This document shows, in pieces, positions 5,048 through 32,004 of a stretch of 33,871 bases of DNA (position 1 is its first letter; each line of letters begins with the position of its first letter). The stretch lies in the IMG/VR virus record IMGVR_UViG_3300022752_000221, positions 1-33,871 of that record. One strand, given 5' to 3'. Below the pieces are notes generated by a model. That model was not told where the DNA came from. It saw nothing but the letters and a program-made list of their open reading frames with translations, and did not search any database. The stretch comes from a virus. The position numbers and the translations under genes were made by a program.

Positions 5048-5822
5048 GTTACCAACGAGATACGAGGAGTTCACCTTGTTAATTAAGATAAAAACGCCAA
5101 AACCCGAAAAGATACACTTAAAGGTTTATGACGAATATCTTAAAAACACAATATTCACAAATAGATGGAAAACCATTAATGGTGAATGTTCTTTTTTTGT
5201 GCGTATGCCAATTAGTGGAAAAAGTGCCTTAATAAAAGTTTGGAATGATAGGATTGGCGACAACAAGGAAGAAGACAATTCATTTGAGGTTGTTGAAATC
5301 AAGAAACTACCATTAGAAAAAAGATTGGATGTGCTTGATTTTACAAATTCAACGTTGAGGTCGTTCATTAATTTTTGTACAAGGTTTTGTTTCAATGCGG
5401 GTCATTTGTCATCGGGTACTTATGTATCATCTGATGGCAAGTTTACTATTGAGTACGTTCCTACTATCATAAGTAGTAAGAGTGGTAAAGAACTCGAAAC
5501 CCCTGCTCGTATCAACAAGGATTCGGGAAGGATTCAAGTTTCTCAAAAGAAAATGATTCCCGACACTATTCCAATGAGAATGGCTATATTGCTACACGAG
5601 TATAGTCACTTCTATGTTAATAAGGATATTGACAATGAGAGTGAGGCTGACTTGAATGGCTTACTTATCTATTTGGGATTAGGTTACCCAAGATTTGAAG
5701 GTCATGAAGCGTTCTTAAAAACTTTTATCAACACACCTACCGAGCAAAACAAGGTGAGGTATGACAAGATTAAAGCGTTTATTGACGATTTTGAAAAAAA
5801 CAACTATATCGTTTACGAATAA
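5037..5822 (+). CDS. HExxH zinc metallopeptidase-like protein
   Basis: The motif HEYSH at residues 187-191 lies in a hydrophobic helix and is followed 9-13 residues later by NESEAD (200-205), which supplies candidate Glu/Asp third ligands. This matches the HExxH...E arrangement of gluzincin-like zinc peptidases. Residues 1-95 look like a beta-rich accessory domain. There is no signal peptide or membrane segment, and the gene is embedded in the virion operon, overlapping the previous gene. Two roles fit: a maturation protease for virion proteins, or a virion-borne enzyme acting during entry. The exact peptidase family is not recognised. Confidence 0.65.
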   Translation: MIYKLPTRYEEFTLLIKIKTPKPEKIHLKVYDEYLKNTIFTNRWKTINGECSFFVRMPISGKSALIKVWNDRIGDNKEEDNSFEVVEIKKLPLEKRLDVLDFTNSTLRSFINFCTRFCFNAGHLSSGTYVSSDGKFTIEYVPTIISSKSGKELETPARINKDSGRIQVSQKKMIPDTIPMRMAILLHEYSHFYVNKDIDNESEADLNGLLIYLGLGYPRFEGHEAFLKTFINTPTEQNKVRYDKIKAFIDDFEKNNYIVYE

Positions 5823-5832
5823 AAAATACACA

Positions 5833-6387
5833 ATGTCAAACAAAGCATTTGAAGTTTATAAGGGTTTACCATCATGGGCAAAAGGAGTTGTTGTTATTGG
5901 TGGAATAGCAATAGTTTATTTCACTACAAAGTCTTTTTTAAAGAGAATTAAACAATCGGCTGAAAAGAAAAAAGATATGGAGGTTGTTGTTGAGCAAAAG
6001 AAAGAGTTAGATACACTCGTTAAAAATGGTGTTTATCCTACATTTTCGGGTTCACAATATAAGGCTTGGGCTGATGCTTTACAAAAACAATTTGATGGAT
6101 GCGACCCAAGTATAAGAATACCATTGTTAGCACCAACATCTCTTTGGAATAGTCAATGGAGTGGAAGTGGTGCAAAATTTGTAAACATAATTTATAAATT
6201 TAAAAACGATGCTGATTTTTTACAATTAAGTCAAGCGTATGGTGTGAGAACTTATGACCAATGTGGATGGGGAACGGGTAATTTTACGGGTTCTTTAGCA
6301 GCGGCGATTTCAGATGAGTTAGATGAAAGTGAAATAAATGCAATAAATCAAGCATTAAGTAAACAAGGCATAAAATATAAATTTTAA
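5833..6387 (+). CDS. N-terminally anchored virion protein (184 aa)
   Basis: The start is set at the ATG at 5833, after the upstream stop and an A-rich leader; the longer frame from 5761 would overlap the metallopeptidase gene heavily. One membrane segment (about 16-34) is followed by a charged helix and a soluble domain of about 130 residues containing NSQWSGSGAKF and CGWGTGNFTGS. The family is not recognised. The layout suggests a membrane-anchored virion protein with an outward or inward facing domain. Confidence 0.65.
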   Translation: MSNKAFEVYKGLPSWAKGVVVIGGIAIVYFTTKSFLKRIKQSAEKKKDMEVVVEQKKELDTLVKNGVYPTFSGSQYKAWADALQKQFDGCDPSIRIPLLAPTSLWNSQWSGSGAKFVNIIYKFKNDADFLQLSQAYGVRTYDQCGWGTGNFTGSLAAAISDELDESEINAINQALSKQGIKYKF

Positions 6388-8186: not shown

Positions 8187-8561
8187 ATGGCTGATAAATT
8201 ATATAATACAATACACATTTTTGGATTTGGTATCGTTAAAGTAATAGGTAATGGGTTTAATTATCAAATACAAGGGTCAATGGTACAAATGGAATTAGAC
8301 TCTTGCATCAATAATGTTTATGAAAATAAACCAACAAACTCAACAACTCCAAATACATATCACGCTATCAATGTTTTTAATGATTCATTTACCGAGTGGT
8401 TAGCAAAAGAAGAAGGTCAAGAATCTTTTAGGGTGGAATCGTCTAAATTAAACACAACTTTATTTGACGCTTTGGCTATGGCTGTGATTGGATTTAATCC
8501 CTCAACATCACTACCAATAGTAGAACCACCATTGCCATCATTTGATGCACCAACAACTTAA
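8187..8561 (+). CDS. Hypothetical protein (124 aa), spike-proximal
   Basis: A soluble alpha/beta-looking protein with a Pro-rich C-terminal tail (about 108-122) that could dock to a partner. It ends 12 bases before the spike gene. Candidate roles are adaptor or chaperone for the spike, based only on position. Confidence 0.5.
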   Translation: MADKLYNTIHIFGFGIVKVIGNGFNYQIQGSMVQMELDSCINNVYENKPTNSTTPNTYHAINVFNDSFTEWLAKEEGQESFRVESSKLNTTLFDALAMAVIGFNPSTSLPIVEPPLPSFDAPTT

Positions 8562-8573
8562 AATATTTAAACT

Positions 8574-10604
8574 ATGGATTTTGGAAGTAGAAATTCGGGG
8601 TTTTTCGGTGCATCGGGAGGAGGTGGAGGTTGCACCATAGTATGTTGTACGACTTGTTGCACAACCATTAACCAATGTGGTGTCGAAGTTTTAGGTTGTG
8701 GTACTTGCTCAACTTATAGATGTTGCGTTAATAACGCATCTTGTGGCGATTATAGTACTTCTTTGGGAGGACTATGCAATATCTCATGTGAGATTTTTTC
8801 TACCATTGTAGGTGGGTGTTGTAATAAAGTTCAATGTCAACGTGGATTTATTGGAGGAGGTGGATGTAATACAGTTTGGGGTGCTGATGGAACAATAAGT
8901 GGAGGGTATCGGAACACAACTTGCAATAATGGAAGTGTTGTTGTTGGAGGAGTTGCCAATACATCTAATTGCTATTCTTTTGTTGGAGGAGGTTATTGTA
9001 ATACTTCAAGTAGTAGTTATTCAAATTATGGTAGCGTAGTCGTTGGTGGTCTTTGTAATTGTTCTTGTGGAATTGCATCAGTAATAGTAGGAGGTGTGTG
9101 TGGGGTGTCAACTGCAGAAAGGAGTGTAATTGTAAGTGGATTTTCTAATACAAGTAGTGGTCAATACGCATTTATTGGAAATGGGTGTATAAATATTTCA
9201 AGTGGGAATAATTCATTTATTGGAAATGGAAGATGTAACACCATTGCTTCAAATTTTTATAGTGTAATATTAAATGGTTGTTTTAATTCAATTAGTGCCT
9301 ATTCATTAAATACAATAATCAATGGTCAATCAAATAGTATTTCGGGAACTTATGTTGACCATAGCACCATAATTAGTGGTTATCTAAATAGTATTTCGGG
9401 TTATGGAAATACTTATAATTCAATAAATCAAGGTTTTTGTAATAGTATTTCGGGTATTTATATATATCATAATTTAGTAGGTGGTGGTTCTCAAAATACT
9501 ATTATTGGTAACGATAATTGGTTTAATTTAATAAGTAGTGGAAACTTAAATAATATATCAAATACTTGTAATAGGTATAATATTATTGATGGTGGGTATA
9601 ATAACACTATATCGGGTTATAGAAGTAGGTATAATATTATAGGTAATGGTTGTTGTAGTTGTATTATTGGTGCTAACCAAACTTTTGCCAATGTAGAAGG
9701 ATATATAAATAAAATTTGTGGAGATGAAGGAGGTTGGAATTTTATTAGTAGTGGTGGTACAAATTGTATTGTAGGAAGCAATATGTTTGTAAATTCAATT
9801 CATAATGGTTATGGAAATACAATAAGTGGTGATTACATTGAAAGAAACACAATAATAAGTGGAACTAATAGTTGTATTATAGGTGATTGTAGTGGTTATC
9901 AGACTATTTCAAATGGTTTAACAAATACTATATCGGGTTATCAAAATTGTTATAATACCATAGAAAATGGATGTTATAATTCAATATGTAGTAGTATATA
10001 TTCATCAATAATAAATGGTACTAATAATACTATTAATTCTAATTTTTCAAGCATTGTAAGTGGATTTGGTAACTTTGCTTGTGGGTGTGGCTCTCTTGTA
10101 AGTGGATTAAATGCAGGTAGTTATTTATATTTTCAAAGCGTTCAATCAAGTGGTTATTTAACAAGTCAATCCGACGCACAAACATCACAAGTAATTGCAA
10201 GGAAACAAGCAACATTAAATGCAAGTGGAACTTCTCCTATGTATTTGGATGGTGTGGGCGAATTAATCATCCCAAGAGGAAATAATAGAGCATGGAATGT
10301 TCAAGTAAGTTGGGTTATTGTGGTGACGACTTTAGGAAGTGGAACAGGTGGTGGATTGGCGGTTGGTGCAGTTCATGTTGGAAATGATGCTTTCTTTTTC
10401 AAGCGTGTTGGAGGTACTTCTTCCATATCAGCACAAACAAATATTTCAAGCCATAATGATAGTGGTATGGCATCATCAAATGTAACAGTTTCGGTGGGTG
10501 CAAGTCAAAATTTATTATTGACATTAGTAGCACCAACAACGGCGGGAACGGGAACGACTTTTAGGGCAGTTGCAAGTGTTAAATTAGTTGAAGTTGCGTG
10601 GTAA
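8574..10604 (+). CDS. Cys-rich beta-roll spike / receptor-binding protein
   Basis: The largest gene here (676 aa). Residues 1-20 are Gly-rich, followed by a dense cysteine region (six Cys within residues 20-34). From about 40 to 520 the sequence is an irregular tandem repeat of about 15-25 residues built around N-[TS]-I-S-G, SxIxGG and IINGxxN, like the left-handed parallel beta-rolls of YadA-type heads and phage fibres. Residues about 535-676 form a different, non-repetitive beta-rich C-terminal domain, likely for trimerisation or receptor binding. No tail genes exist, so it most likely forms the vertex spike. The high Cys content through residue about 180 and sporadically after is unusual. 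Confidence 0.65.
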   Translation: MDFGSRNSGFFGASGGGGGCTIVCCTTCCTTINQCGVEVLGCGTCSTYRCCVNNASCGDYSTSLGGLCNISCEIFSTIVGGCCNKVQCQRGFIGGGGCNTVWGADGTISGGYRNTTCNNGSVVVGGVANTSNCYSFVGGGYCNTSSSSYSNYGSVVVGGLCNCSCGIASVIVGGVCGVSTAERSVIVSGFSNTSSGQYAFIGNGCINISSGNNSFIGNGRCNTIASNFYSVILNGCFNSISAYSLNTIINGQSNSISGTYVDHSTIISGYLNSISGYGNTYNSINQGFCNSISGIYIYHNLVGGGSQNTIIGNDNWFNLISSGNLNNISNTCNRYNIIDGGYNNTISGYRSRYNIIGNGCCSCIIGANQTFANVEGYINKICGDEGGWNFISSGGTNCIVGSNMFVNSIHNGYGNTISGDYIERNTIISGTNSCIIGDCSGYQTISNGLTNTISGYQNCYNTIENGCYNSICSSIYSSIINGTNNTINSNFSSIVSGFGNFACGCGSLVSGLNAGSYLYFQSVQSSGYLTSQSDAQTSQVIARKQATLNASGTSPMYLDGVGELIIPRGNNRAWNVQVSWVIVVTTLGSGTGGGLAVGAVHVGNDAFFFKRVGGTSSISAQTNISSHNDSGMASSNVTVSVGASQNLLLTLVAPTTAGTGTTFRAVASVKLVEVAW

Positions 10605-10621
10605 TTTTTTGTATATATTTG
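10588..10621 (+). promoter_or_regulatory. Bacteroidota-type promoter for the decoration cassette
   Basis: TATATTTG at 10614-10621 matches the TANNTTTG -7 box. A TTG at 10588-10590 (23-base spacer) or at 10594-10596 (17-base spacer) serves as the -33 element. It lies 18 bases upstream of the methyltransferase start, so the decoration genes may be expressed separately from the spike. Confidence 0.55.
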
Positions 10622-10639: not shown

Positions 10640-11302
10640 ATGATAGAACCGACTACCATCGAGTCATTCAAAAGAGAATACTCGATAAACCTAAACAACA
10701 ACGAATTTAAGAACGTTGTAAATAAAATTCTACAAGAAAACGAAGTGGATGAGATTGTAGAGACGGGTGCTTTTAATGGCTTGGGAAGTACAAGTGTATT
10801 TGCTCAAACAAAGAAGTACGTTTTCTCAATAGAATGTAACTATAACAATTTTGTCAATGCTACGAATAATCTTATCAATTACGAAAATGTGTGTGTCGTT
10901 CATGGCTTGTCATTGAGCCGAAACGATTTAATCAGAGGTCTTCTAAACGAAAGATTCGACATAGAAACTAAATACGACTCTGATTATCCCAAAGCATTTT
11001 ACATGAGGGAAATCTCCCATCAAGTGGTAGTAGAAAACGCCCTTGATATATTTTGCAATAATTATAGAAAGCAATTAGTTTTTTTGGACTCGGCGGGTGG
11101 TGTTGGGTATTTGGAGTTTAATGCCTTTATGAGTTATAGCAAGTCATACTTGTCTAACAAAATACTTATGCTTGACGACATTAGTCACATCAAACATAAA
11201 AGGTCGGTTGAAAAACTCGAAGAGTTAGGATATGAAGTACATCAATCAAGCGACAATAGATTCGCATGGTGCATATTAGGTAACAAAAAAACAAACGCAT
11301 AA
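10640..11302 (+). CDS. Class I SAM-dependent methyltransferase-like protein
   Basis: A SAM-binding loop candidate VETGAFNGLGST lies at residues 40-51, followed by an acidic strand end (FSIECN, about 62-67). A later FLDSAGG and KILMLDDISH fit the motif IV/V region of FkbM-like or surface-polysaccharide methyltransferases. A sugar or protein O-methyltransferase is likely, acting with the adjacent glycosyltransferase and sulfotransferase on a glycan. Substrate unknown. Confidence 0.55.
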   Translation: MIEPTTIESFKREYSINLNNNEFKNVVNKILQENEVDEIVETGAFNGLGSTSVFAQTKKYVFSIECNYNNFVNATNNLINYENVCVVHGLSLSRNDLIRGLLNERFDIETKYDSDYPKAFYMREISHQVVVENALDIFCNNYRKQLVFLDSAGGVGYLEFNAFMSYSKSYLSNKILMLDDISHIKHKRSVEKLEELGYEVHQSSDNRFAWCILGNKKTNA

Positions 11303-11306
11303 AATA

Positions 11307-12182
11307 ATGAAAAACATTGTATTCCAAATAGATGGTGGTATTGGCAAGGTAATAGCCTCCACTTCAGTTGCAAAAGCCATTAAAAAGAAATACCCAAATG
11401 ATAACTTGATTATCATATCGGGTTACCCCGAAGTTTACTTAAATAACCCAAATATTTACAAGTCACTTCAGTTTGGTAACATAAGTTATTTCTACACCGA
11501 CTACATTGAAAACAAAGAGGCGTTGTTATTTTTACACAACCCATACCTTGAGGTTGACTACGTTAAAGAAAACAAGCACTTGATTCAAGTGTGGTGTGAA
11601 ATGTTTGACATTCCTTATGATGGGGAAATGCCCGAAATTTATCTTACAAGAAGAGAGTTGGACTTCTATCAACATAAGTATAAATCAGATAAGCCATTGT
11701 TCTTAATGCAAACCAATGGTGGTGCAAATTCTGACATTAAATACTCTTTCGCAAGAGATTTACCAATAGGCGTTGTAGACAAGGTAATTGAAAGATACAA
11801 GAAGGATTTTAATATTCTCCATGTTAGAAGAGAAGACCAAATTGGTTACGCAAACACTACTCCTATACACGCCCACTTCAGAGAGATTTTAGCACTCACC
11901 TTGCTTACTTCAAAGAGATTATTAATAGATTCATTCTTGCAACACGCTTGTGCTTCTATGGGTCTAAAATCAAGCGTATGTTGGATTACTAACTCTCCAA
12001 AGGTTTTGGGTTACGAGTTACATGACAACATCCTTGCAAATCCATTTAACCACCAACCCGAATTGAAAAATAGTTTCCTATCAAAGTTTAATATTGTTGG
12101 CGACCCAATCGAGTTTCCATATAAGTCAGAGGAAGACATCTTCGACATAGAAAAGATATTTGCTTCATTAGATAAACAATAA
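11307..12182 (+). CDS. Glycosyltransferase family 9-like (heptosyltransferase-type)
   Basis: The N-terminus (FQIDGGIGKVIASTSVAKAIKK, about residues 5-27) matches the GGIGD-x-xxxTPALRALKK pattern of GT9 heptosyltransferases, with Lys in place of the usual Asp. The C-terminal half has a second Rossmann-like set: FLMQTNGG (131-138), and an LLIDSFLQHACASMG stretch (about 210-224) equivalent to the D-GxxHxAxALG donor-binding region. It probably transfers a sugar to a viral or host glycan. Genes on both sides are 4 and 2 bases away, so one operon. Confidence 0.6.
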   Translation: MKNIVFQIDGGIGKVIASTSVAKAIKKKYPNDNLIIISGYPEVYLNNPNIYKSLQFGNISYFYTDYIENKEALLFLHNPYLEVDYVKENKHLIQVWCEMFDIPYDGEMPEIYLTRRELDFYQHKYKSDKPLFLMQTNGGANSDIKYSFARDLPIGVVDKVIERYKKDFNILHVRREDQIGYANTTPIHAHFREILALTLLTSKRLLIDSFLQHACASMGLKSSVCWITNSPKVLGYELHDNILANPFNHQPELKNSFLSKFNIVGDPIEFPYKSEEDIFDIEKIFASLDKQ

Positions 12183-12184
12183 AA

Positions 12185-13012
12185 ATGTCACAACAACTAT
12201 TCTTTCAATCGTCTATGCCAAGAGCATTGTCAACTATGTTTCAAAACATAATAGGTCAAAACCCCGACTTCCATGTAACACCAACCGATGGCTTACTTGA
12301 ATTGATATTTGGTGCAAGAGGTAACTATACTAATTCACCCGAATTTTTGGCTCAAGATTCAGAGGTCATGGCTAAAGCGTTCAAGTCGTTTTGCTACAAT
12401 GGGATGATGGGGTATGCAAATGCCTTAACCGACAAAAAGTACCTTATGATTAAAAGTCGTGGGTGGGGAACATATCGTGGTTTTCTAAATGAGGTTTATC
12501 CAAATCCAAAGATTGTTTGCATGGTGCGTAACCTAAAAGATATAGTCGCTTCATACGAAAAGATTTATCGAAAAAATCAGTTAAGACATGACCCAATAAG
12601 GAATGATGCTGAAGGTAGAGGTACAACCATTTACAAGCGTATTGATGAGTGGATGGATGGTAGGAATACGATTGGTCGTGCCATTGAAAGATTGCTTGGT
12701 ATTATTAGCGAAGGTTATGACGACAAAATTTTGTTTGTTAAAGCCGAAGACTTATGTTTATATCCCGAAAACACAATGATTAGAGTTTATGAATATTTGG
12801 GAGTTCCTCACTATGAGCATGACTTTGATAATATACAACAAATTACAACCGAAGATGATAGTGTATATGGTCTTACTAAAGATTTACATACTATCAGACC
12901 AAAGTTGCAATTAAAACAATCTGACGCTGACACAATCATACCTAAAGATGCTCGTGAGTGGCTATATGATAGATTCAAATGGTATTACACCAAATTTGAT
13001 TACAAAAAATAG
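12185..13012 (+). CDS. PAPS-dependent sulfotransferase
   Basis: The 5'-phosphosulfate binding loop is at SSMPRALST (9-17) right after the first strand. The 3'-phosphate binding element is VRNLKDIVASY (114-124), with R115 and S123 as the expected contacts. Its 275-residue length suits single-domain sulfotransferases. These use PAPS to sulfate hydroxyls on glycans or proteins. The next gene encodes an APS kinase that makes PAPS, and a glycosyltransferase gene lies upstream, so sulfation of a virus-encoded glycan is the simplest reading. The acceptor is unknown. Confidence 0.8.
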   Translation: MSQQLFFQSSMPRALSTMFQNIIGQNPDFHVTPTDGLLELIFGARGNYTNSPEFLAQDSEVMAKAFKSFCYNGMMGYANALTDKKYLMIKSRGWGTYRGFLNEVYPNPKIVCMVRNLKDIVASYEKIYRKNQLRHDPIRNDAEGRGTTIYKRIDEWMDGRNTIGRAIERLLGIISEGYDDKILFVKAEDLCLYPENTMIRVYEYLGVPHYEHDFDNIQQITTEDDSVYGLTKDLHTIRPKLQLKQSDADTIIPKDAREWLYDRFKWYYTKFDYKK

Positions 13013-13019
13013 AACGATT

Positions 13020-13475
13020 ATGGTAGTGTTACTCTTTGGTCAACCCTCTTCGGGCAAAACGACCCTCGCTGATAAACTTGTACCTTTCATGCCATCTCAT
13101 ACTATGAGGATTGATGGCGATGTTTGGAGAGAAATAACCGATAACAAAGACTACTCGGAAGAAGGAAGAAAAAGAAACTTAAAGGGTGCATACGACATGG
13201 CTATTTATTTGTCACAAAATGGGTTCGTATCACTAATGAGTTTTGTTTCTCCATTTGAAGAGTTGAGGCAATATTTGAGGAGTAAAACCACTCTGATTGA
13301 GATTTATCTTGAGTATAACCAAGATAGAGGTCGGAATGATTACTTTGCCAAAAAATTTGATGAGCCGAAAGATTGCTTACGAATAAATACATCGGAAAAA
13401 AATATTGATGAATGTGTTAACGAAATTAGGAATTATATAAAAGAAAAAACAAACTATTTGTATGGAGTGGAGTAA
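13020..13475 (+). CDS. cysC: Adenylylsulfate (APS) kinase
   Basis: Phosphorylates APS to PAPS with ATP. The start is set at the ATG at 13020, which puts Walker A (GQPSSGKT, 7-14) at the usual place; the longer frame overlaps the sulfotransferase. IDGDVWRE (31-38) matches the LDGDNVR signature, YSEEGRKRN (45-53) matches F-x-x-E-x-R-x-x-N, and FVSPF (75-79) matches the SFISPF loop. It is slightly shorter than typical CysC (about 200 aa) but has all core motifs. Adjacent sulfotransferase and nucleotidylyltransferase genes make a PAPS supply role very likely. Confidence 0.85.
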   Translation: MVVLLFGQPSSGKTTLADKLVPFMPSHTMRIDGDVWREITDNKDYSEEGRKRNLKGAYDMAIYLSQNGFVSLMSFVSPFEELRQYLRSKTTLIEIYLEYNQDRGRNDYFAKKFDEPKDCLRINTSEKNIDECVNEIRNYIKEKTNYLYGVE

Positions 13476-13497
13476 AAAGATTCATGTCGAGAGTTCA

Positions 13498-13875
13498 ATG
13501 GAAAAAAAGAAAAACCAATATTCAATGTTTATTGGTAGGTGGCAACCATTACATCAAGGTCACAAAATGATGTTTGAAAAAGTATTAGAGGAAGGTGGGA
13601 ACGTATATATTGCTATTAAAGATGTAGAACCCGATATGAAAAACTCATTTACCCCACTTGAAGTTTTAGGAAATATAATGAATGAATATGATGCCTTAAT
13701 TCAAGAGGGAAGGGTGAAGGTTCAAGTCATCCCCGATATATGTTCGGTTGAGTTTGAAAGAGGGGTTGGGTATTCTATTATTGAACACATACCACCAACC
13801 GATGTCGCTGAAATATCAGCAACCAAGATTAAAGAAAAAATGCTTTTAGAATCAAAAGGTAAGTATGGGTTATAA
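13498..13875 (+). CDS. HxGH nucleotidylyltransferase, candidate ATP-sulfurylase-like enzyme
   Basis: GRWQPLHQGH (13-22) is the HxGH-type nucleotidylyltransferase signature and ISATKIKE (106-113) is the matching ISxTxIR motif. These are shared by ATP sulfurylase, NMN adenylyltransferase and cytidylyltransferases, so substrate cannot be read from the motifs alone. At 125 aa it is a minimal one-domain enzyme. It follows directly after APS kinase, which suggests it makes APS from ATP and sulfate, but a nucleotide-sugar or NMN role is possible. An alternative start at 13462 would overlap the APS kinase gene by 14 bases. Confidence 0.65.
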   Translation: MEKKKNQYSMFIGRWQPLHQGHKMMFEKVLEEGGNVYIAIKDVEPDMKNSFTPLEVLGNIMNEYDALIQEGRVKVQVIPDICSVEFERGVGYSIIEHIPPTDVAEISATKIKEKMLLESKGKYGL

Positions 13876-17333: not shown

Positions 17334-17867
17334 ATGGAATCGAATAAAGAAATTGTTTTAGAAGAAAACTTCAACATCGGTCAAAGGATGGATGAAATAG
17401 AGGCTTTAATGTGTAAAAATTTTGAACCATTAACGTTACCTTTGGTACATAGATTCACCGATGGTTTATACCTAAGAGAGTTAGCAATACCACAAGGAAC
17501 TATTATTACGAGTAAGACTCACAAGACACAACATCAATTCATACTTTTGAAGGGTGTTATTTCAGTTTGGGATAATGATGGTACTGAACATATACTTCAA
17601 GCACCTCATTGTGGTATAACACAACCTAACACGAGGAGGATTGCGTATGCTTGGTGTGATTGTTTATGGACAACGATTCACCCAAATCCCGAAAACAAAA
17701 GTTTAGAGGATTTAGAATTGGACTTGTTTGAGGATTATGACAATACTTTGTTAGATGATGAGGCGAAGGCTAAAATAAAAGATGCTCAAGAGTCTTCAAA
17801 TGCTTTGAGCAAAACTATAAACCCATTATTAAAAGATAAAAAATTAGAATTATGTCAGCAGCAATAA
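17334..17867 (+). CDS. Cupin-like protein
   Basis: Residues about 55-120 form a single cupin-like beta barrel: GTIITSKTHKTQHQFILLKGVISVWDNDG followed by QAPHCG and AWCDCLWTTIH. H65 and H69 are candidate metal ligands along with later His/Cys residues. The C-terminal region (120-177) is acidic and helical. Similar cupin proteins are encoded by many phages without assigned function. It overlaps the next gene by 16 bases. Confidence 0.6.
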   Translation: MESNKEIVLEENFNIGQRMDEIEALMCKNFEPLTLPLVHRFTDGLYLRELAIPQGTIITSKTHKTQHQFILLKGVISVWDNDGTEHILQAPHCGITQPNTRRIAYAWCDCLWTTIHPNPENKSLEDLELDLFEDYDNTLLDDEAKAKIKDAQESSNALSKTINPLLKDKKLELCQQQ

Positions 17868-31281: not shown

Positions 31282-32004
31282 CTATTTTGATTGAAAATTA
31301 TATGGATTTAACGGGTTAGTTGACCAACCTTTAGGGTTCACAACATCTTGTCCACTAAAAACAAAAGTACCTTGAGCATCATCATATCTTAATTGCTCTC
31401 TTTCAGCATCGGTGAAATTTCTTCTCCAATAACCTTTTAAATTACCACCAAGCGTATTTTGACCTATTATCATCGTTCTTGTTAGGATTGAAGTTTTATC
31501 CCCTTCACGAGTACCACTTGATGCGGTGTTACCTTCAATAGTTTTAACAACAAATCCATTACCCGATGCACCTAAAATTTCAGTAACAATCCCCGTATGT
31601 CCACCCTTCGTATAAGTTAAACAAAACACATCACCAACTTGTACATCATTTTTTCTTGAAGCAATGTATCTATTATCACCTTGTTTATTATAGTTCTCAA
31701 TCATAAGAAGATTATTATACGCACCACCACTAATATTTTTTGATAACCAAACTCTATCGAAAGAATACATTTGCATAAAAATCAACTTAACATAGTAGGC
31801 ACACCAAGCCTGTGATGACACCCATCCAACCGACTTCATCATAGCCTCAAATGAAGCATCTACAAATCCTTTGTTATTGCCAATTTTTTCATATTGAGAA
31901 TCCAATTTATTAGTAGAAATCGCTTTAGTTAAGTTTGTAGTAATCAATAGTGGTGTTGGTTCACCAAATTTTGGGGTATTAAATTTTGGAGTATTAAAAG
32001 CCAT
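31282..32004 (-). CDS. CHAP endopeptidase, unanchored (paralogue C)
   Basis: CHAP catalytic residues C68 (QAWCAYY), H136 (GGHTGIV) and E157 (IEGN). The N-terminal tandem TPKF repeats (NTPKFNTPKF, 4-13) and the C-terminal extension after residue 205 set it apart. There is no membrane segment. It is paralogous to the 29884 protein but lies on the opposite strand with the small anchored protein upstream. It may be a virion-associated lysin. Confidence 0.75.
   Translation of the reverse strand: MAFNTPKFNTPKFGEPTPLLITTNLTKAISTNKLDSQYEKIGNNKGFVDASFEAMMKSVGWVSSQAWCAYYVKLIFMQMYSFDRVWLSKNISGGAYNNLLMIENYNKQGDNRYIASRKNDVQVGDVFCLTYTKGGHTGIVTEILGASGNGFVVKTIEGNTASSGTREGDKTSILTRTMIIGQNTLGGNLKGYWRRNFTDAEREQLRYDDAQGTFVFSGQDVVNPKGWSTNPLNPYNFQSK

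Follow-up and report, generated by a model that had tools for sequence, protein, structure and literature searches.

Positions 10640 to 13875 of the window analyzed here, the 33,871-base IMG/VR virus record IMGVR_UViG_3300022752_000221 (virus records may be fragments), hold five plus-strand open reading frames (ORFs) that overlap their neighbors or sit no more than 35 bases from them, and that come straight after the gene for a 676-residue repetitive protein (Table 1). A preliminary description of this locus had read the run as a cassette that makes 3'-phosphoadenosine 5'-phosphosulfate (PAPS) and sulfates a glycan, and both the run and its coordinates were borne out. Based on homology, gene linkage and the distribution of relatives in viruses and cells, we consider it probable that two of the products, a kinase similar to adenosine 5'-phosphosulfate (APS) kinase and a small HxGH nucleotidylyltransferase (NT), provide the linked sulfotransferase (ST) with PAPS.

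Proteins encoded at the locus

The ST matched Pfam Sulfotransfer_3 (PF13469; E = 2.6e-14) with 54.5 bits against a curated cut-off of 27, as the preliminary description had led us to expect. Its PRxxST motif is conserved, residues P12, R13, S16, T17, K90, R115 and S123 being invariant in 32 aligned sequences; position 15 is L in the window protein and G in nearly all the others. A family profile built from 32 viral sequences matched tyrosylprotein sulfotransferase in the PDB (7.7e-11), and in this alignment TPTSG falls opposite GEETR after the PAPS loop, where we take the catalytic Glu of tyrosylprotein sulfotransferase to be placed.

The kinase ORF opens inside the ST gene (12948-13475), while the start codon of the family is the ATG at 13020. 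Its product matched APS_kinase (PF01583; E = 4.7e-13, 49.9 bits, Pfam cut-off 21.1) over the first two thirds of the family, as well as APS kinases in the PDB (4.7e-10), and has the conserved motifs GxxxxGK, DGDxxR, SxxGRxxN and SxxxPY/FxxxR. That the expected binding motifs are kept in both the kinase and the ST supports a role for the two in making and using PAPS.

The NT matched CTP_transf_like (PF01467; E = 5.7e-6) and carries GRWQPLHQGH and ISATKIK, which correspond to the HxGH and ISxTxxR/K motifs of the HxGH nucleotidylyltransferase superfamily. The NT motif GRDVGY may resemble GRDHAG, a motif of ATP sulfurylase. Assignment as an NMN adenylyltransferase (NMNAT) equivalog was rejected, the scores (29.7 vs 127 and 24.3 vs 181.2 bits) being below the curated cut-offs, and a weak PDB match to NEQ068 was taken as chance.

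The glycosyltransferase was assigned to GT9 by fold only, as it had no sequence-family match in Pfam. Its AlphaFold model (pLDDT, the model confidence score, 93.6) matched the PDB entries 3tov (4.1e-11), WaaF (3.6e-9), WaaC (1.4e-7) and TibC (5e-6), so the GT9-like label given to it earlier holds for the modeled fold but not at the level of a GT9 sequence profile. It has the fold of GT9 heptosyltransferases, TibC included, at an identity of only 5-14%. The GT9 profile also gave a weak PDB match, to a lipase, which we attribute to chance.

The repetitive protein encoded upstream had been called a spike, and the call is supported by its relatives, which match the adhesin repeats UspA1_rep (best 5.4e-19), LbR_Ice_bind and YadA_head; the window copy itself had no Pfam match. 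Further along the window, ORF 17334-17867 encodes a tail fiber adhesin (phrog_24280, 1.8e-22), which is a second candidate receptor-binding protein.

Two other elements of the preliminary description did not hold. The first gene of the run had been called an S-adenosylmethionine-dependent methyltransferase, but its product had no significant match in Pfam, PHROG or NCBIfam (sub-threshold matches only, such as Erm, 0.048), and neither phages nor the loci that we fetched yielded a relative; being confined to the window, it was rejected as a core member of the cassette. A promoter of the cassette's own was rejected as well, because candidate sites were no better than chance: there were 35 sigma-70-like sites compared to 33.8 in shuffled sequences, and the single TAnnTTTG box at 10614 is one of 63 in the window, where the shuffles gave 57.9.

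Table 1. Features of the window in and around the cassette (viral NT loci are the 80 loci described in the next section)
Feature	Position	Strand	Basis or remark
Small protein, function unassigned	8187..8561	+	15 of the 80 viral NT loci have a relative, often just 5' of the GT9 gene
Cys/Asn/Gly-rich repetitive spike with adhesin-like beta-roll repeats	8574..10604	+	Candidate target, outside the enzyme set
Putative class I methyltransferase-like protein, accessory	10640..11302	+	VETGAFNG motif; sub-threshold matches only; window-specific
GT9-fold glycosyltransferase	11307..12182	+	AlphaFold2 model and PDB fold matches; shared by 51 of the 80 viral NT loci
PAPS-dependent ST, Sulfotransfer_3	12185..13012	+	PF13469 match, PAPS-binding motifs
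APS-kinase-like P-loop kinase, shortened C-terminal lid	13020..13475	+	PF01583, PDB APS kinases, conserved motifs
Small HxGH NT, proposed compact sulfate adenylyltransferase	13462..13875	+	PF01467, AlphaFold2 fold, kinase linkage
DUF2061 membrane-protein homolog, without usable start codon	13919..14107	+	HMM E = 2.6e-22; PF09834 family

Occurrence of the kinase-NT pair in viruses and cells

Scans of viral contigs with the single kinase and NT sequences returned no relatives, and alignments were required: with an NT alignment there were at least 578 relatives, of which we examined the best 80, less one duplicate contig and plus one locus from another scan. Among these 80 viral NT loci a kinase gene was found in 78, DUF2061 in 70, an ST in 58 and GT9 in 51, always on the strand of the NT, and the kinase and NT genes overlap or lie no more than 30 bases apart in 67 of the 78 loci that have both. 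The 52 loci with good flanks gave a similar picture (kinase 52, DUF2061 47, ST 42, GT9 39), with all genes on the same strand and at least five gene orders, the most frequent being GT9-ST-kinase-NT-DUF2061 (16 loci), ST-kinase-NT-DUF2061-GT9 (14) and ST-GT9-kinase-NT-DUF2061 (7). As the 80 loci are related, some of them almost identical, they do not represent independent events, and the reshuffling of gene order is the stronger argument for a functional module.

The identity of the ST in the module varies. An ST of the window family was present in 34 of 45 NT-bearing viral records, and four of the remaining 11 carry a Sulfotransfer_2 protein instead, which in locus L158 lies directly before the kinase, 3 nucleotides off, and in L149 about 0.5 kb away. 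Since the ST partner can be exchanged between Sulfotransfer_3 and Sulfotransfer_2, the linkage follows the sulfuryl donor and not one ST family.

The gene for DUF2061 (PF09834 in the relatives), which starts right behind the NT gene, lies just outside positions 10640-13875 and was overlooked in the preliminary description. We regard it as a constant companion of the cassette to which no role is assigned. The window frame has no start codon, perhaps as a result of a frameshift or decay.

Other genes recur within or beside the viral cassettes. A protein of 77-82 residues (KIRYNT...WRILINGVEH in L158) is encoded within the cassette in about 40 viral loci (e.g., L158:6369-6602 and L004:6832-7080), and a HAD-like phosphatase gene lies between or behind the kinase and NT genes in about 16 (e.g., L158:5625-5966 and L168:5587-5958). 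In L004, the nearest relative of the window, a GIY-YIG endonuclease gene (5310-6002) sits between the GT9 and ST genes, which suggests a homing-type insertion. Window ORF 31282-32004 (minus strand) and L004:10956-11561 (plus strand) encode related proteins (43% identity) whose place and orientation differ between the two viruses.

The pair is also found in cells. Scanning one genome per species, we obtained 112 NT relatives, most of them fused to an APS kinase domain or next to one, and the pair, often fused, is present in haloarchaea, Omnitrophota, Acidobacteriota, Alphaproteobacteria and candidate-phyla bacteria. In haloarchaea and Omnitrophota the fused APS kinase domain is full-length (154-193 bits). 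In 24 of the 57 genomes compared, an ST gene sits no more than 5 kb from the pair; 0.46 such genomes were expected, and none of 200,000 random draws gave more than 5. The coordinates were compared by hand and the statistic ignores kinship among the genomes. The genomes with a nearby ST span haloarchaea, Diapherotrites, Patescibacteria, Omnitrophota, Planctomycetota, Acidobacteriota, Marinimicrobia and Alphaproteobacteria. In all 12 haloarchaea the sole PF00685 (Sulfotransfer_1) match of the genome adjoins the fusion or sits within about 1.5 kb of it; these matches are individually weak (E from 1e-5 to 0.05), and the one haloarchaeal neighbor protein that was tested matched PF13469 at 1.6e-8. 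A YqcI/YcgG family gene follows the fusion in L041 (5404-6147), and other haloarchaea have genes of similar size in that place.

Most genomes with the pair gave no match to a classical ATP sulfurylase. Sat (PF01747) was matched in only four of 60 genomes and not in the other 56, and a substantial CysD match (>180 bits) was found in 12 and not in 48. Together, Sat and CysD account for 14 genomes; the remaining 46, which include all 12 haloarchaea, matched neither, and their APS kinase would otherwise be left without APS.

In a tree of the NT, based on only 112 columns, the viral copies group in a single clade (99/97), where the window pairs with L004 (100/84). This clade lies near the split kinase and NT genes of marine Bacteroidota and Marinimicrobia; the fusions of Casjensviridae and of Stenotrophomonas phage DLP6 fall apart from it, with Alphaproteobacteria.

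Proposed function and its alternatives

We propose that the NT would join ATP and sulfate to give APS, a step suggested by genomic context, and that the APS-kinase-like enzyme would phosphorylate APS to PAPS, from which the ST would transfer the sulfuryl group to an acceptor, both as expected from homology. The GT9-fold enzyme, judging by its linkage, may add the sugar that bears the sulfate or that sits beside it. The kinase and NT would then constitute a compact PAPS synthase in which the NT takes the place of ATP sulfurylase, as we infer from the gene neighborhoods. That the pair makes PAPS and that something is sulfated with it, as the preliminary description held, is well supported by the recurrence of the module in viruses and by the cellular fusions beside STs in genomes that gave no match to a classical ATP sulfurylase, but the formation of APS is attributed to the NT from context, because in sequence and fold this protein is closer to NMN adenylyltransferases than to ATP sulfurylase. 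A broader proposition, which we put forward as a possibility well short of an expectation, is that the small NT represents an unrecognized class of sulfate adenylyltransferase, that it and an APS kinase together make up a compact PAPS synthase common to viruses, haloarchaea and candidate-phyla bacteria, and that phages build sulfated glycoprotein spikes with it.

The likeliest acceptor would be a virion surface structure, such as the neighboring adhesin-like spike, with a host surface glycan as the main alternative. In the window and many of its relatives the cassette genes lie directly 3' of adhesin-like spike genes, and TibC, one of the fold matches of the GT9-like protein, is a heptosyltransferase that glycosylates an adhesin; based on these two facts we tentatively favor the virion spike, with a confidence somewhat short of even. 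Adjacency is consistent with the spike or virion glycan named as target in the preliminary description, but spike-family genes were found in the fetched flanks of just 24 of the 80 viral NT loci. This low frequency fits a second scenario that we also regard as possible, in which PAPS made by the cassette is used during infection to sulfate glycans or lipids of the host surface, for receptor masking or superinfection exclusion, and not the virion. In some loci the kinase, NT and DUF2061 genes are indeed far from recognizable spikes and among glycan-modifying genes (in L158 the neighbors are a GT2-like protein, identified by eye, and Methyltransf_24), and the GT9 relatives include the lipopolysaccharide heptosyltransferases WaaC and WaaF.

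Several observations weigh against PAPS synthesis by this pair. The closest folds to the AlphaFold2 model of the NT (pLDDT 88) are archaeal NMN adenylyltransferase (E = 4.6e-4) and phosphopantetheine adenylyltransferase (PPAT), the best match of the NT family profile is NMNAT (1.7e-11), ATP sulfurylase ranks only 49th among the fold matches (8a8g, E = 0.098) and PF01747 was not among the Pfam matches up to E = 1. The kinase scores under the TIGR00455 apsK equivalog cut-off (53.2 vs 138.7 bits, spanning 15-123 of 184) and the viral kinase does not have the full APS-kinase lid. The names APS kinase and HxGH nucleotidylyltransferase in the preliminary description are apt for the PF01583 family and for the superfamily motifs and fold, respectively, but not for an apsK equivalog or, with NMNAT and PPAT nearest, for a member of the ATP-sulfurylase family. 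Many of the cell genomes are incomplete single-cell or metagenome assemblies of unreported completeness, so the absence of Sat and CysD from any one of them is weak evidence and the haloarchaea, some of which are isolates with named plasmids, weigh most. Seven of the 45 NT-bearing viral records had no clear ST; several are short fragments and three are 169-297 kb long. No ST was found near the fusion in three related Casjensviridae phages, two of which were scanned whole with none above the cut-off. Finally, of 41 positions that are near-invariant in the family, five are altered in the window NT (R53K, P62S, G99E, D105S and R124K), the most of 68 aligned copies; G99E falls in GRGVGY. Judging from its sequence, the protein may be impaired.

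This divergence could mean that the present virus is losing its PAPS branch, with GT9 and ST alone still at work, on host PAPS. The start-less DUF2061 frame and the relatives L006-L009, which have GT9 and ST without the kinase-NT pair nearby, point the same way. We find such decay rather doubtful, as the kinase and NT reading frames are intact, the kinase departs at only one of 23 near-invariant positions, and all the genes are kept in L004.

We consider it unlikely that the pair makes some other nucleotide cofactor, such as an NAD/NMN-type dinucleotide or another 3'-phospho-adenylyl donor, while the ST uses host PAPS. The kinase is related to APS kinase and not to NRK or NadR, the pair is linked to several kinds of ST, in viruses and in several phyla, far more often than expected by chance, and most pair-bearing genomes gave no match to a canonical ATP sulfurylase. 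Another kinase of APS-kinase type considered here is the CDP-phosphoramidate kinase of the methyl-phosphoramidate pathway. The evidence that such a cofactor would explain consists of the NMNAT-like profile and fold of the NT, the NADAR and MazG-like genes that adjoin the Casjensviridae fusions, and the ST-bearing viral records that show no NT (e.g., the 50.8-kb record of L006). Viral cysC is usually filed under sulfur metabolism or assimilation and is listed in virome papers as an auxiliary metabolic gene of sulfur metabolism (PMC9789665, PMC8066274, PMC12766990), but a kinase that boosts host cysteine synthesis is very improbable here, as its constant partners are NT, DUF2061, ST and GT9 in viral loci that were not specifically scanned for PAPS reductase or CysD.

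Relation to known systems

Sulfotransferases are already on record in phages, including OM43 phages, with their function called unclear (PMC10580990). Those of cyanophages S-SRM01, S-SKS1 and S-SCSM1 are of the Sulfotransfer_3 type, like the window ST, to which they are 25-29% identical over 87-98%; unlike in the window, neither kinase nor NT nor DUF2061 was found in the regions fetched on either side of these three genes. The isolate DLP6 (KU682439.2) encodes an annotated ST and a kinase-NT fusion that are unlinked (38223-38837 and 129043-129774); the two genes have the locus tags AAY80_227 and AAY80_051. The ST did not come up in a term search of the DLP6 genome paper. Sulfated virion glycans had been thought unusual for a bacterial virus when the locus was first described; given the STs of cyanophages, OM43 phages and DLP6, the word fits the self-made PAPS supply but not the ST.

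The fusions of DLP6 and the Casjensviridae belong to phrog_10255, annotated as "kinase." They have the same kinase and NT domains and form a distant clade beside the alphaproteobacterial fusions, with an ST only in DLP6 among those checked. Our search, which did not extend to the subscription literature and leaves novelty unproven, found no paper that deals with the fusion of kinase and NT, with a part for DUF2061 in the use of sulfate or with sulfation cassettes in phages, and the supply of PAPS does not come up in a paper on the sulfotransferases of haloarchaea.

If our proposal is correct, a widespread unnamed family of kinase-nucleotidylyltransferases would gain a function, organisms without a recognizable ATP sulfurylase would have a route to PAPS, and some viral "cysC" genes would move from sulfur assimilation to sulfation. 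It predicts sulfated phage surfaces, or surfaces modified by phages, and makes it possible to test directly why phages have sulfotransferases.

The bacterial CysD-CysN/CysC and Sat-CysC systems have the same proposed product, PAPS, but Sat and CysD were mostly not found where the pair occurs. In PAPSS, the bifunctional PAPS synthase of animals, the order is the same, a kinase followed by an HxGH nucleotidylyltransferase, and the PAPS produced serves sulfotransferases. The differences are that the NT described here is an NMNAT-like domain of about 110-135 residues and not the large PF01747 ATP sulfurylase, and that in the viruses the two proteins are encoded by separate genes that overlap, with a shortened lid on the kinase. 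Since the NT does not match PF01747, we classify the cassette as a variant of sulfate activation and sulfation that would work in the manner of a PAPS synthase.

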